Assembly: GCA_029243385.1 (NCBI GenBank)
Contig: JAQWSC010000006.1
Coordinates: 62,001 to 126,000 of the forward strand
DNA: 64,000 bases
Origin: Flavobacteriaceae bacterium
GTDB lineage: Bacteria; Bacteroidota; Bacteroidia; Flavobacteriales; Flavobacteriaceae
Direction: 5' to 3'
This document shows, in pieces, positions 4,374-35,710 of this stretch. Within the stretch, counting starts at the first letter, position 1; each line of letters begins with the position of its first letter. A model generated the notes under the pieces. That model did not search any database and had not been told where the DNA came from. It saw nothing but the letters and a program-made list of their open reading frames with translations. The position numbers and the translations under genes were made by a program.

Positions 4374-5084
4374 TTACTGCAACTTAAATGTAATAGGAAT
4401 GCTAAAAGGCACTCTAACGGGGCGTCCACGTTGTTTCCCTGGAATCATCTTGGGAAGTTTTCCGATAATTCGGGCTGCTTCTTTTTCCAAATTTTTGTCC
4501 GGACCGCGCGTTCGAATATTGGTTATATTTCCATCACTTCCTATCACAAAAACTACAAAAACTTTTCCTTGTACACCCATTTCCTGCGCAATTTCAGGGT
4601 AGCGAAAATTTCGACTGATATGCTTTTGTATTTGCTCTTGAAAACATTTTTTTTGTTCAGATTTTTTGACACGCTCACAATCTGGAAACAAAGGAGCATC
4701 TTCGATGATAGCAAAAGGAACATCTATTTCCTCTATTTCTTCTACTACCTCAACGTTTTCAACGATTTCCTCATCCTGATCGGTTTCAGAAGACTTAATA
4801 ACCGTTTCCTCGATGTCATCATCGTCTTCAACGATTTCAATTATTTGAGGGGCCACTGATGGCGGTGGCGGTGGCGGAGGTGGAGTTTTTATTAAGTCCG
4901 TAACAGGAACTTCCTCTTCATCGTCCTCGCTTACATTAAGAAGTTGGAGATCAAAGTTGGTTTTTTTATACGATTTCCATTCAATAGCACGCCATGAAAT
5001 AAACAGCATCAAGCACAAACCGATGGAAAAATAAAGACTACTGTTTTTGGAAAGATCGCATTTTGGGTTTTTTTTAGGCTTCAT
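4374..5084 (-). CDS. Energy transducer TonB, tandem copy 1
   Basis: TonB-family protein (236 residues) that would transmit proton-motive energy from ExbB-ExbD to outer-membrane TonB-dependent receptors. It has a short cytoplasmic N-terminus, one membrane helix (about 17-33), a linker with a run of eight prolines (about 67-74) and a strongly acidic Asp/Glu stretch, and a C-terminal TonB domain from about residue 150 with RNFRYPEIAQEMGVQGKV and the ending VRVPFSIPITFKLQ. It is a tandem duplicate of the gene at 5182-5880, with near-identical architecture. A terminator lies between the copies, so this one probably has its own weak promoter. Confidence 0.92.
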   Translation of the reverse strand: MKPKKNPKCDLSKNSSLYFSIGLCLMLFISWRAIEWKSYKKTNFDLQLLNVSEDDEEEVPVTDLIKTPPPPPPPPSVAPQIIEIVEDDDDIEETVIKSSETDQDEEIVENVEVVEEIEEIDVPFAIIEDAPLFPDCERVKKSEQKKCFQEQIQKHISRNFRYPEIAQEMGVQGKVFVVFVIGSDGNITNIRTRGPDKNLEKEAARIIGKLPKMIPGKQRGRPVRVPFSIPITFKLQ

Positions 5085-5181: not shown

Positions 5182-5880
5182 TTATTGCAGTCGGAAGGTG
5201 ATTGGAATACTAAACGGAACCCTTACTGGTCGTCCTCGTTGTTTTCCTGGCGTCATTTTGGGAAGTTTTCCGATAATTCGGGCAGCTTCTTTCTCTAAAT
5301 TTTTATCCGGCCCTCGCATTCGAATGTTTGTAATACTTCCATCTTTGGCAATTACAAAATTAACATATACGCGTCCTTGAATACCCATCTCTTGTGCAAT
5401 TTCAGGATAGCGAAAGTTTCTACTAATATGTCGCTGTATTTTTTCTTGAAAGCATTTTCTTCGTTCCGATTTTGATACTCGTTCGCATCCTGGGAATAAG
5501 GGAACATCTTCAATAATGGCAAAAGGGACATCTACATCCAATTCTTCTTCCAAAACTTCAACTTCCTCTACAATTTCTTCCTGATCGGTTTCCGTGGACT
5601 CAATAATGGTTTCCTCTACCTCTTCCTCGTCTTCTACAACTTCAATAATTTCAGGAGCAGGTGGCGGTGGCGGCGGCGGTGGCGTTTTGAGTTGTTCGGT
5701 AATAGGCACTTCCTCGTCGTCCTCATCATCAACGTTTAATATTTCGTATGCATAACTCTTTTTGTAGGTTTTCCACTCAATAGCTTGCCAAGAGATAAAG
5801 AGAACGGCGCAAAGTCCTACAGCGAAATAAAGGCTGCTGTTTTTAGTCAAATCCGCCTTTGGGTTCTTTTTAAGTTTCAT
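5182..5880 (-). CDS. Energy transducer TonB, tandem copy 2
   Basis: TonB-family protein, 232 residues, with the same order as its neighbour: charged N-terminus, membrane helix at about 17-32, polyproline run of eight (about 66-73), acidic linker, and a C-terminal TonB domain with RNFRYPEIAQEMGIQGRV and the ending VRVPFSIPITFRLQ. The two C-terminal domains differ at only a few positions, and at DNA level they share a 26-base identical run (near 4448 and 5256), so the duplication looks fairly recent or maintained by conversion. The linkers differ more. No exbB/exbD genes are adjacent in this window. Confidence 0.92.
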   Translation of the reverse strand: MKLKKNPKADLTKNSSLYFAVGLCAVLFISWQAIEWKTYKKSYAYEILNVDDEDDEEVPITEQLKTPPPPPPPPAPEIIEVVEDEEEVEETIIESTETDQEEIVEEVEVLEEELDVDVPFAIIEDVPLFPGCERVSKSERRKCFQEKIQRHISRNFRYPEIAQEMGIQGRVYVNFVIAKDGSITNIRMRGPDKNLEKEAARIIGKLPKMTPGKQRGRPVRVPFSIPITFRLQ

Positions 5881-26334: not shown

Positions 26335-26757
26335 CTAGGCCAACCATGGACGTCCCATGTGAATGATGGGAAACAATCCTGCTTGGATTACCGAGAAAAT
26401 AGTCATTGCTTCCGCAGATCGGTTAATAGCCATTCTCCATTTTTGACGAAACAATAGCAATACTGCCGAAATTAATGTTCCTGCATGACCAATACCTACC
26501 CACCATACAAAGTTGGTGATATCCCATGCCCATCCAACTGTTTTGTTGAGTCCCCAAACTCCAATTCCTGTTGAAATTGTATAAATAATACATCCTATTC
26601 CCCACAAAAATGCGGAAAGGGAAATTCCAAAAACAATCCACCATTGTTTGTTTGCAGTTCCTTCTACAGGCGCAGCAATGTCAACCGTAACATCGTGATA
26701 GGACTTGTTTCCGGTAACTAAAGGTTTTCGTATGGGTGCTTCGTAGTGCGAGGCCAT
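26335..26757 (-). CDS. actC: ActC (NrfD-like) N-terminal portion, ended by premature TAG
   Basis: First 140 residues of ActC: a hydrophilic N-terminus (MASHYEAPIRKPLVTGNKSY), then three membrane helices including DITNFVWWVGIGHAGTLISA, whose HAGT region belongs to the family's quinol-site helix. Normal ActC has about 460 residues in one chain; here a TAG stops translation after GRPWLA. The rest of the protein follows in the same frame to 25366. The gene lies 22 bases after actB. Whether the TAG is real, read through, or a sequence error cannot be decided here. A truncated product alone would lack most of the helix bundle. Confidence 0.88.
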   Translation of the reverse strand: MASHYEAPIRKPLVTGNKSYHDVTVDIAAPVEGTANKQWWIVFGISLSAFLWGIGCIIYTISTGIGVWGLNKTVGWAWDITNFVWWVGIGHAGTLISAVLLLFRQKWRMAINRSAEAMTIFSVIQAGLFPIIHMGRPWLA

Positions 26758-31751: not shown

Positions 31752-34106
31752 TTATTTTAGTTTCTTTTTAATGGCAATTTCTTGGTAACATTCAATGATG
31801 TCTCCTTCTTTGATATCGTTGTAGTTTTTGATTTGCATTCCACAATCGTACCCTTTGGAAACTTCTTTGGCGTCGTCTTTGAAACGCTTGAGCGATGCCA
31901 AAACTCCTGTAAACACTACAACTCCTTCTCTAATAAGACGGATACCAGCGTTTTTAATAATTTTTCCATCCGTTACCATACATCCAGCAATAGTTCCTAC
32001 TTTAGAAATTTTATAGGTTTCTCTAATTTCTGCAGTACCTGTAATCTCTTCTTTCATTTCAGGAGACAACATCCCTTCCATTGCATCTTTTACGTCGTTG
32101 ATAGCGTCGTAAATGATGGAGTAATTACGAATGTCGATTTCTTCTTTATCTGCAAGTTGGCGAGCATTTCCAGTAGGACGAACGTTGAATCCAATAATAA
32201 TTGCATCAGATGCTGATGCCAATAAAACGTCTGACTCTGTAATAGCTCCTACTCCTTTATGGATAATGTTTACTTGGATTTCTTCTGTCGATAATTTTTG
32301 GAAAGAATCGGTTAGTGCTTCTACAGAACCGTCAACATCTCCTTTGAGAATGATGTTAAGTTCTTGGAAATCTCCAAGAGCAATTCGTCTTCCAATTTCA
32401 TCTAACGTTATATGACGCTGTGTTCGGACGGATTGTTCGCGTTGAAGTTGTGTTCGTTTGGCTGCAATTTGTTTGGCCTCTTTTTCTTCTTCAAAAACAC
32501 TGAAATTATCCCCTGCTTGTGGGGCTCCATCGAGCCCTAGAACAGCAACTGGGACAGAAGGTCCTGCTTCGTTTACTGCTGTACCTCGCTCATTGAACAT
32601 GGCTTTTACTTTTCCACTGTGTTGTCCAGCAAGAAGATAATCTCCAATTCGGAGGGTTCCTGCCTCGACCAAAATCGTAGATACATACCCTCTTCCTTTG
32701 TCAAGAAGGGCTTCAACTACAGTTCCTTGTGCCAATCGATCTGGATTGGCCTTTAGTTCAAGAATTTCAGCTTCTAACAATACTTTTTCTAAAAGCTCTA
32801 AAACTCCAACACCGGTTTTGGCGGAAATATCTTGAGACTGTATTTTACCACCCCAATCTTCTACCAAAAGATTCATGGAGGCTAATTTTTCTTTGATTTT
32901 TTCTGGATTTGCATTGGGCAAATCTACCTTGTTGATTGCAAAAACAATCGGAACTCCAGCCGCTTGAGCGTGACTGATGGCTTCTTTGGTTTGAGGCATT
33001 ACGTCGTCATCGGCAGCGATAACAATAATGGCTAAATCCGTTACCTGCGTTCCTCGTGCTCGCATCGCCGTAAAGGCTTCGTGACCTGGTGTATCTAGGA
33101 ATGTGATGTGTTGACCGCTTGGAAGCTCTACTCGATAGGCATCAATGTGTTGCGTAATTCCTCCCGACTCGCCAGCGATCACATTTTCTTCTCTAATATA
33201 ATCAAGCAAGGATGTTTTTCCGTGATCTACGTGTCCCATTACGGTAACAATAGGAGCTCGTGGAATTAAGTCCTCTGGACTGTCTTCAATGGTTTCAATG
33301 GCATCTTCAATATCAGTAGTTACAAACTCTACTTCGTAGCCAAACTCGTCAGCAACAATGCTAAGAGTTTCAGCATCCAATCGTTGATTCATCGTTACCA
33401 TGATTCCCAAGGACATACAGGCTGAAATAATTTCTGTACTCCCTACATTCATTAACGTCGCAACTTCGCCAACGGTAACAAATTCGGTTACCTTTAAAAT
33501 TTTACTTTCCGCTTCTTCTTGAGCCAATTCTTCATCTGTTTTTTGTCGATGTGAATCTCTTTTTTCTCGGCGGTATTTAGCTCCTTTGGATTTGTTAGAT
33601 TTCCCCTGCAGCTTTTCGAGGGTTTCTCGAATTTGTTTTTGAACCTCTTCCTCAGTAGGTTCTACCTTAGCAACAGCTGGGCGGGAATTGGATTTTTGAT
33701 TGGAACGTCTTTTGTCATTGGACTTTCCTCCTCCAGATCCAGGTTTTGCATCTTTGGTAATTCGTTTGCGACGCTTTTTGCGGTCGTTTTCTTCTTTTTT
33801 GGCTGCAGTTGTCGGCTTTTTTTCAAATTGCTTTAGGTCAATGGTTTGACCCGTGGCTTTCAGCCCTGATAATTTTTTGTAATTAGTCTGAATGGTAGAA
33901 CTCGCCTCCGATGGAGCTTTTTCAGTAGGAGTGGCTTCCTTTTTTTCTGGAGCTTCCGGACCATTTGGTTTTTCTGCACCTTCTGCAACAGTCTCTGTCT
34001 TTACTGGAGCAGTAACAACTTCTTCCTTTTCCTGAACAGGCGCTTCTTTGGCTTTGGGTTTAGCCGCTGGTTTATTGGGGTCGGATAAATCGATTTTCCC
34101 AACCAT
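31752..34106 (-). CDS. infB: Translation initiation factor IF-2, main part (gene interrupted upstream)
   Basis: GTPase that brings initiator fMet-tRNA to the ribosome. From ATG 34104-34106 it has 784 residues: a Lys/Glu/Pro-rich linker, an IF2N-type domain (about 205-260, [17 protein letters not shown]), the G domain with [20 protein letters not shown] and NKVD, then domains II, III and the C-terminal tRNA-binding domain with NVRPTG. In related bacteria the protein starts about 110 residues earlier; here that N-terminal part is a separate open frame (34200-34427). Between them the frame is unbroken in phase but contains three TAA codons. Translation probably restarts at 34106 or near it, giving a short IF-2 comparable to the shorter E. 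coli isoforms. Confidence 0.93.
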
Positions 34107-34199
34107 TTTGGGTTTTGTAACGGAAGAACGTGCTTTTATGATACGCTCTTGTTCGAGTCGTTTTTGTTACAGTTCCATTTAGAGTTGAATTCGAATATT

Positions 34200-34427
34200 T
34201 TATTTGTCTTTTAGCTTTTGCTCACCAACTTCTTGAGAAGCTTCTCGCTTGGATCGATCTGTTTGAAATTCGTCTAACAAAAATTCATATTCCTGCTTCG
34301 TAATTTTTGAGGTAGGTCGAGACTCTACCTCATGGCCTTTGGAGGCAAGGTGCTCAACGGCTCGATCTAAAGAAATGTTTAGTTCGCGTAGTGCTTTATT
34401 GAGCCTTATGGTTTTTGTTTCTGACAT
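34200..34427 (-). CDS. infB: IF-2 N-terminal domain as a separate 75-residue open frame
   Basis: The sequence MSETKTIRLNKALRELNISL, followed by EHLASKGHEVESRP and LLDEFQTDRSKREASQEVG, is the standard beginning of flavobacterial IF-2, an IF2N domain. It stops at TAA 34200-34202 (complement). The same frame then continues with IF-2-like charged sequence broken by two more TAA codons (complements of 34179-34181 and 34167-34169) and joins the main infB frame. So this is the 5' end of infB, cut off by nonsense codons. It lies about 50 bases downstream of nusA, in normal operon order. Confidence 0.88.
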   Translation of the reverse strand: MSETKTIRLNKALRELNISLDRAVEHLASKGHEVESRPTSKITKQEYEFLLDEFQTDRSKREASQEVGEQKLKDK

Positions 34428-34477: not shown

Positions 34478-35710
34478 TTAGCTAGAAAATTCTGCGCTCA
34501 ATACTTTACATACCTCCGCAATGGTTTCTTCTTCCAAATCGGTTCGCTTGATAAGGTCTTGAACATCTTGTTCCAAAACGCTTTTAGCGGTATCCAACCC
34601 TGCTTTTTTAAATTCTGCAATAACCCAGTCCTCGATTTCATCTGAAAACTCGGTAAGCTCTACATCTTCCTCTGCGCCTTCACGATATACATCAATTTCG
34701 TATCCCGTCAATTGGCCCGCCAAACGGATATTAAATCCGCCACGACCAATGGCTTTGGAAACCTCTTCAGGGTCCATAAAGACCTCTACATGTTTGGTCT
34801 CTTCATTGATGTTTAATGACGTTATTTTTGCAGGACTTAAAGCTCGTGTAATAAGCAGTTGTGTATTGTTTGTAAAATTAATGACATCAATATTTTCGTT
34901 GCCTAACTCGCGAACAATACCATGAATTCTGGATCCTTTCATCCCAACACATGCTCCGACTGGATCAATACGATCGTCATAAGAATCGACAGCTACTTTG
35001 GCTTTTTCGCCAGGAACACGCACTACTTTTTTGATTGTTATCAATCCATCGAATACTTCTGGGATTTCTTGTTCAAACAGTTTCTCCAAAAATTTGGGAG
35101 AAGTTCTCGACATTACAATACTGGGTTTGTTTCCTTTGAGTTCGACACTTTCAATAATCCCACGTACATTGTCTCCTTTTCTGAAAAAATCCGATGAAAT
35201 TTGACGATCCTTAGGAAGGATGATTTCATTGCCTTCATCGTCTAGCAGAATCACTACTCGGTGACGAATATGATGTACTTCTGCTGTATAAATTTCACCC
35301 ACCAAGTCAATGAATTGTTTGTATATAATGGTATTGTCGTGTTCGTGGATTTTTGCGATTAAGTTTTGACGCAAGGCAAGAATGGATCTTCTTCCAAGAT
35401 CAATCAGTTTTACCTCTTCAGAAACATCTTCCCCTACCTCAAAGTCAGGTTCAATTTTTTGAGCTTGCGTCAATTCAATTTCTTGATTTTCATCTTCAAC
35501 AGCTCCGTCTTCAACAACCGTACGGTTTCTCCAAATCTCCAAATCGCCCTTATCAGGGTTAATAATGATGTCGAAGTTGTCATCGTCCCCGTATTTCTTT
35601 TTGAGGGTATTTCGAAACACTTCTTCTAGAATTGACATCAGCGTAACACGATCGATAAATTTATCGTCTTTAAACTCTGAGAATGATTCAATTAACGCAA
35701 TGTTTTCCAT
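34478..35710 (-). CDS. nusA: Transcription termination/antitermination factor NusA
   Basis: RNA polymerase-binding factor controlling pausing, termination and antitermination. The 410-residue protein shows the NusA N-terminal domain (residues 1-125), an S1 domain (KGDNVRGIIESVELKGNKP), and two KH domains with DPVGACVGMKGSRIHGIVRE and EVSKAIGRGGFNIRLA. A short acidic C-terminal tail follows. It lacks the duplicated acidic repeats of E. coli NusA, as is usual in Bacteroidota. Gene order rimP-nusA-infB is conserved; it is 8 bases downstream of rimP. Confidence 0.97.
   Translation of the reverse strand: MENIALIESFSEFKDDKFIDRVTLMSILEEVFRNTLKKKYGDDDNFDIIINPDKGDLEIWRNRTVVEDGAVEDENQEIELTQAQKIEPDFEVGEDVSEEVKLIDLGRRSILALRQNLIAKIHEHDNTIIYKQFIDLVGEIYTAEVHHIRHRVVILLDDEGNEIILPKDRQISSDFFRKGDNVRGIIESVELKGNKPSIVMSRTSPKFLEKLFEQEIPEVFDGLITIKKVVRVPGEKAKVAVDSYDDRIDPVGACVGMKGSRIHGIVRELGNENIDVINFTNNTQLLITRALSPAKITSLNINEETKHVEVFMDPEEVSKAIGRGGFNIRLAGQLTGYEIDVYREGAEEDVELTEFSDEIEDWVIAEFKKAGLDTAKSVLEQDVQDLIKRTDLEEETIAEVCKVLSAEFSS

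Follow-up and report, generated by a model that had tools for sequence, protein, structure and literature searches.

The window analysed here, a 64,000-nucleotide stretch of a Flavobacteriaceae genome (positions 62001-126000 of contig C12 of genome G000; 1.69 Mb, 15 contigs), carries infB, the gene of translation initiation factor IF-2, with three in-frame TAA codons close behind the sequence for its N-terminal domain. One reading frame is kept from ATG 34427 to the terminal TAA ending at 31752, with no insertion or deletion, and the stops divide it into a short and a long open reading frame (ORF 1 and ORF 2; Table 1). We give a probability of about one half to the reading in which the sequenced population truly carries the stops as recent nonsense substitutions and synthesizes a short IF-2 from ATG 34106. 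The substitutions would then lie in the linker that joins the N-terminal domain to the IF-2 core, and the infB mRNA would yield two products, the IF2N domain as a free protein of 75 residues and a 784-amino-acid IF-2 with the GTPase and C-terminal domains. Translation of the latter would begin at ATG 34106, through weak direct initiation or because ribosomes halted 60 bases upstream reinitiate there. This presupposes that the sequence is correct, that translation does start at ATG 34106 and that the free domain is stable. We favor real and recent stops because those in infB form a cluster, in contrast to the stops in two other genes of this genome, actC and lepA, whose flanks are clean or nearly so. 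The break also lies at a point where it is likely survivable, every GTPase and C-terminal domain being encoded behind ATG 34106, which likewise supports real stops.

The interrupted infB frame and its domains

The three TAA codons lie exactly where an earlier note on this DNA, made from the sequence alone, had put them, and its view that the frame does not shift across them was confirmed by an ungapped codon alignment to G001, the only same-genus genome compared (hereafter the congener). In the congener the gene is a single uninterrupted frame of 892 amino acids. Codons 76, 83 and 87 are all GAA there and TAA in G000, which bears out the note's view that each stop is a single substitution away from a Glu codon, so that of the two source codons suggested for the stops, GAA and AAA, the first is borne out and the second is not. 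Across a family alignment of 28 relatives, Glu makes up 89%, 100% and 93% of the residues at these three columns, respectively. The N-terminal domain was found in 387 of the 397 family genomes drawn. An order-level relative (G054:C32:29575-29778) carries an IF2N-like frame of just 101 amino acids, which could stem from another split infB, from a frameshift or from the end of a contig.

A search of G000 against itself showed infB to be single-copy; a second copy was rejected, the six other matches being stretches with 28-41% identity in other frames, among them lepA. A compensated frameshift or an inserted segment as the source of the stops was also rejected, as the surrounding stretch aligns codon for codon with the congener and without gaps. 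Copying from another site was rejected too: the same stretch has seven weak DNA matches elsewhere in G000 besides itself (best E 1e-3), and these were judged to be chance similarity, the three that were inspected being short, one of them gapped, and located within or close to unrelated genes. The exact stop pattern had no match among the IMG/VR viral contigs, as expected for a housekeeping gene.

All profile matches of ORF 2 (IF2_N, GTP_EFTU, EF-G_D2, IF-2 and GTP_EFTU_D2) lie behind ATG 34106. ORF 1 gave no match to PF04760, a Pfam model that misses most first domains of the clade (2 of 17 homologues matched, best E 0.079). For the AlphaFold model of ORF 1 (pLDDT 73), residues 1-72 of Thermus IF2 were the top match both in Foldseek (E 0.14, probability 0.99, with no match below 0.001) and in a second structure comparison (Z 7.5, rmsd 5.0, 70 aligned residues), where by the tool's own caution a Z below 8 may reflect a common arrangement. 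A sequence search of the PDB with an IF2N alignment returned four matches, none with E below 0.1 and none an IF-2. The predicted product of ORF 1 thus appears to be the N-terminal domain of IF-2, on a fold match with modest scores. With the first domain in ORF 1 and the rest in ORF 2, the stops would therefore sit in the linker directly behind the first domain. The domain matches and these fold matches support the layout given in the earlier note, namely a free IF2N-like domain followed by a short IF-2 with the G domain onward.

Table 1. Features of the infB locus and other interrupted genes of G000 (positions in the window unless a locus, L, is given; strand in parentheses).
Feature	Position	Description
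ORF 1	34203..34427 (-)	75 sense codons; IF2N-like N-terminal domain of IF-2; start ATG 34427
In-frame TAA no. 1	34200..34202 (-)	infB codon 76
In-frame TAA no. 2	34179..34181 (-)	infB codon 83
In-frame TAA no. 3	34167..34169 (-)	infB codon 87
Mini-frame ATG GAA CTG TAA	34167..34178 (-)	three codons (MEL, stop); ATG is codon 84, in a start-like context
Patch, codons 68-91	34155..34226 (-)	24 codons; holds all three stops
Codons 92-107, behind the stops	34107..34154 (-)	no ATG, GTG or TTG; conserved at the protein level
ATG codon 108	34104..34106 (-)	first in-frame ATG/GTG/TTG able to yield the whole GTPase; internal Met in the congener
ORF 2	31752..34106 (-)	784 codons; IF-2 with one IF2_N, G domain, domain II and C-terminal IF-2 domains
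nusA (name presumed from sequence and gene order)	34478..35710 (-)	50 bases upstream of ORF 1
actC (NrfD-like subunit, alternative complex III)	26335-26337 (-)	TAG, congener TAT; protein otherwise 99.6% identical to that of the congener
lepA	L157:17522 (-) and L228	TAA at Glu of DFSY[E]VSRS (congener GAA); lepA of G001 open
comF-like phosphoribosyltransferase gene	L161:9189 (+)	TAA, congener TAC
comEA-like helix-hairpin-helix gene	L155:3348 (-)	lone TAA, congener CAA
DUF2851-like gene	L155:7900 (-)	lone TAG, congener TAT
PspC-like gene	L166:13103-13118 (-)	frame change in G000; congener open over 550 amino acids

Divergence around the stops

To assign changes to branches, we polarized them with 28 relatives over the first 575 codons of infB (542 columns). 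On the G000 branch, 8 of the 11 replacements, stops included, fall in codons 68-91 (hypergeometric 6e-10), whereas the congener branch has 1 of its 11 there (Fisher between branches, 0.0075); outside this patch G000 has 3 replacements and the congener 10. With so few G000 replacements outside the patch, the G000 sequence compared does not look error-laden elsewhere.

Relative to the congener, the patch holds 6 synonymous changes, 9 replacements and the 3 stops. Its differences number 10, 2 and 11 at codon positions 1, 2 and 3 (10 transitions and 13 transversions), and many of the replacements are conservative, such as L/I, E/Q and E/D. Because of this distribution over codon positions and the conservative swaps, the patch looks like the product of evolution and not of random miscalls. 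Exceptional divergence as such was rejected, since in an unpolarized scan of 230 genes many stretches were higher and the patch lay outside the top 30 clusters; codons 108-145 of infB differ by 14 replacements and 8 synonymous changes. The distinctive features are the stops and the one-sided origin of the changes on the G000 branch, so that codons 68-91 were freed from constraint, or struck by a burst of change, on this side. With three stops and five further derived replacements within 24 codons, a burst of change in a linker that can be dispensed with is a better fit than isolated errors at single bases.

The unconstrained spacer expected of a settled fission was not found in codons 92-107, which are conserved at the protein level. 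An old fission is unsupported, because a long-standing break would have let these codons drift. Together with the low ratio of nonsynonymous to synonymous substitution rates (dN/dS) behind the stops (0.055, compared with 0.047 before them), their conservation indicates that the stops are recent, false or passed by the ribosome.

Other interrupted genes in the G000 assembly

The assembly, rated 99.02% complete with 0.01% contamination, was examined for further interrupted genes in a comparison between 861 kb of G000 and 471 kb of G001, which share 258 genes and 84,426 aligned residues. By-eye sorting kept 5 of the 22 raw stops in G000; the other 17 were discarded as falling ahead of the gene start, outside a coding frame, at the edge of an alignment or where the alignment has gaps. 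Three of the 5 accepted interior stops fall within a single 36-base stretch inside infB, a concentration beyond chance, and the others lie in actC and a comF-like gene. Interior stops thus affect 3 of 258 shared genes in G000 and 0 of 272 in the reverse direction, where all 8 raw stops were set aside by the same criteria. Frameshift-like pairs numbered 3 (in two ORFs) in G000 and 1 in reverse. In a control same-genus pair sorted by eye, interior stops occurred in 1 of 77 genes of G190, whose single raw stop was kept, and in 0 of 76 genes of G366, whose 4 were set aside. The rate of interrupted genes in G000 is not clearly abnormal compared with these assemblies. The gene interrupted in G190 (L258, matching L283:7986-9167) looks by eye like a glycoside hydrolase gene, with its stop at a Glu of the congener (NYHP[E]WFDG).

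Stops at L153 (12440, 12443) and L226 (14337) were regarded as uncertain. Elsewhere on L153 (9350-9797), a 161-amino-acid ORF of the congener (L176) matches as three adjacent pieces in differing frames, which may be a broken gene or a non-coding frame. Searches of G000 against itself (one scan of 461 kb, of G000 alone) added lepA, a comEA-like gene and a DUF2851-like gene, which stand outside the count of 3 in 258. The names comF, comEA, DUF2851 and lepA are those we presume from motifs.

Codon by codon, the flanks of the actC stop carry synonymous changes only, and those of the lepA stop are clean except for two neighbouring replacements about 20 codons off. In all six interrupted genes dN/dS behind the stop is far below 1. 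It is 0.025 behind and 0.027 before the stop in lepA, 0.002 and 0.021 in actC, and lower behind than before in the comF-like and comEA-like genes (the latter frame counted with two stops and split at the first); in the DUF2851-like gene it is twofold higher behind the stop (0.095 and 0.043). The idea that only Glu codons are hit was dropped, as the sites in actC, the comF-like gene and the DUF2851-like gene are Tyr codons and the comEA-like site is a Gln codon. Among the eight nonsense sites there is 1 transition (CAA to TAA in the comEA-like gene), where a share of 0.28 is expected from the four-fold-site spectrum and 0.17 from a uniform one; eight sites are too few to decide between error and mutation. 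Deletion of actA, which belongs to the same complex as actC, is reported to have ended cytochrome aa3 activity in Flavobacterium johnsoniae and was not lethal, another quinol oxidase being present (PMC8552683). By analogy, loss of actC need not kill the cell.

Initiation behind the stops and competing readings

To evaluate possible starts, we used a start-context model trained on 378 starts and 2880 internal ATGs of G000, with mean scores of 2.80 and -3.19, respectively. ATG 34427 scores 5.68, the 84th percentile of starts. ATG 34178 scores 1.80 and, correcting the earlier note, yields nothing beyond MEL and a stop. ATG 34106 is the sole ATG, GTG or TTG from the third stop to codon 300. Several observations weigh against real stops with a start at this codon. 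Its score of -2.33 is at the 5th percentile of starts and the 59th of internal ATGs; since the internal Met of the congener at codon 108 scores nearly the same (-2.57), no start signal has evolved there. An 81-base RNA fold flanks ATG 34106 with hairpins on either side. Codons 92-107 would not be translated from this start, though they are conserved, with 7 synonymous changes and 1 replacement relative to the congener. A lone nonsense change is present in no fewer than five further conserved genes of G000 (actC, lepA and the comF-, comEA- and DUF2851-like genes), and the assembly may contain errors. Among the best approximately 150 of the 387 family matches (not counted exactly), only G000 has the domain in a 76-amino-acid frame, the next shortest frames being 293, 637 and 695 amino acids. 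The reported start determinants in F. johnsoniae are A at -3, -6, -12 and -13 and low structure (PMC6847099); ATG 34106 agrees with them at -3 and -12 (both A) and departs from them at -6 (C) and -13 (T). Initiation at ATG 34106 is possible, and neither score nor context shows a sign of adaptation to starting there. The true fission with internal initiation considered in the earlier note is upheld in its domain layout, but not as a settled fission with an adapted start, given the start score and the constraint behind the stops. The note's two other options, tolerated nonsense substitutions and sequence error, correspond to the two readings that we rate highest.

That the stops are assembly or consensus errors and the infB of the organism is unbroken is a serious possibility, to which we give somewhat less credence than to real stops. 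Errors would account for the unbroken constraint and the unseen start signal behind the infB stops and for the finding that, in 861 kb of G000, at least six genes have nonsense codons in otherwise open, constrained frames, in addition to the frameshift-like break in the PspC-like gene. In one resequenced isolate genome, 28 of 73 interrupted genes are reported to have been sequencing errors (PMC1852416), and in-frame stops, mostly short-lived, are reported to be widespread in constrained bacterial genes (PMC7918605); both precedents fit G000. As in the former, the deposited sequence would be broken and the gene truly whole, but those errors were over- and undercalls and the changes in infB are clustered substitutions. 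As in the latter, infB, actC and lepA are under purifying selection with low dN/dS, but infB, an essential gene, has three stops within 36 bases. Against errors, the other five sites are single-base changes, so that the infB patch would need a separate, local type of error, and its codon-position pattern is uneven. Nor is G000 clearly worse than the assemblies it was compared with, and its rating is high. If the stops are false, they are a warning of nonsense errors in conserved genes of this assembly, including actC and lepA.

The remaining readings let translation continue behind the stops in another way. It is quite improbable that IF-2 starts at a non-ATG codon, ATC 34142 or ATA 34139, with codons 96/97 onward translated and an older, settled fission. 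Such a start would fit the protein-level conservation of codons 92-107, and ATA 34139 has a better context (0.76) than ATG 34106, with ATC 34142 at -1.71. However, codons 92-95 precede both candidates and are identical too, the contrast between codons 92-107 and 68-91 is modest (Fisher p = 0.03) and also explained by recent stops, and starts at codons of the ATC/ATA type are rare. Recoding, with TAA read as Glu or with bypassing from AAA 75 to AAA 89, is very improbable, even though all three infB stops and the lepA stop replace Glu codons of the congener and constraint persists behind them. G000 has 39 tRNA matches, 38 above the cut-off (37 read by ARAGORN, two by eye), including a single, ordinary tRNA-Glu(UUC). 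No stop anticodon (UUA, CUA or UCA) occurs among the tRNAs found, an incomplete set in which tRNA-Ile(GAU) and tRNA-Ala(UGC) were unseen. No loss of a release factor was found, as both RF-1-domain proteins are present (frames of 345 and 359 amino acids), as in the congener. Moreover, TAA terminates infB itself and the upstream nusA, and the other nonsense sites replace Tyr or Gln. Three successive TAA codons would make leaky readthrough negligible where no suppressor exists. Programmed bypassing of the T4 gene 60 type involves matched take-off and landing codons and a structured gap; AAA 75 and AAA 89 do form a matched pair, but this codon is common, the gap is predicted to hold little structure, and bypassing has no positive support. 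An IF-2 made as two separate proteins, a free IF2N domain facing NusA and a core synthesized past the three stops by a non-AUG start in codons 92-97 or by this bypassing, would account for the constraint on codons 92-107; we consider it improbable. A tRNA-like 3' half at L156:3573-3638 (+) (28 bits, below the cut-off) lies directly behind a frame that looks GIY-YIG-like by eye, and is perhaps a scar of a mobile element.

Real stops with a short IF-2 from ATG 34106 would have partial counterparts in known systems. In Escherichia coli, IF2alpha has Domain I, and IF2beta and IF2gamma, made from internal starts, are without it (PMC12297416). As in these and in the shorter forms of Bacillus subtilis (PMC12297416, PMC1780047), ORF 2 is without the first N-terminal domain but retains a single IF2_N domain, the G domain and the remaining domains. 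In both bacteria, however, the frame is open and the long form is also made, whereas the stops in G000 would abolish it, and ATG 34106 lacks a start-like context. As the start-context model gave no recognizable internal start at ATG 34106, we do not class ORF 2 as such an isoform, although it may act like one. A single IF2N domain is reported for 57 of 191 bacterial IF-2 sequences (PMC1780047), the same domain make-up as that of the ORF 2 product, but G000 still has a separate frame for the first domain just upstream. E. coli without Domain I is viable and grows 15-41% more slowly, depending on the medium (PMC12297416). Given this deletion and the single-IF2N proteins, loss of the first-domain tether is therefore likely survivable. 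The first domain of E. coli IF-2 was reported in 2025 to bind NusA (PMC12297416), and the linker behind it matters in the cold (PMC11838494).

Internal starts that give a short IF-2 are thus known, but an abolished long form with the first domain still encoded would be new; no report of a split infB was found in a limited literature search (titles and the beginnings of abstracts). If real, the G000 gene is a natural experiment on the NusA-binding first domain and the linker behind it, as a cell without full-length IF-2 but with the free domain would tell the effect of tethering apart from that of the domain being present. Such a gene would also show how a single internal Met can render an essential gene tolerant to nonsense changes. 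Elsewhere in the window, two adjacent and similar proline-rich proteins of 236 and 232 amino acids are encoded at 4374-5084 and 5182-5880 (-) and look like a tandem duplication of TonB type.
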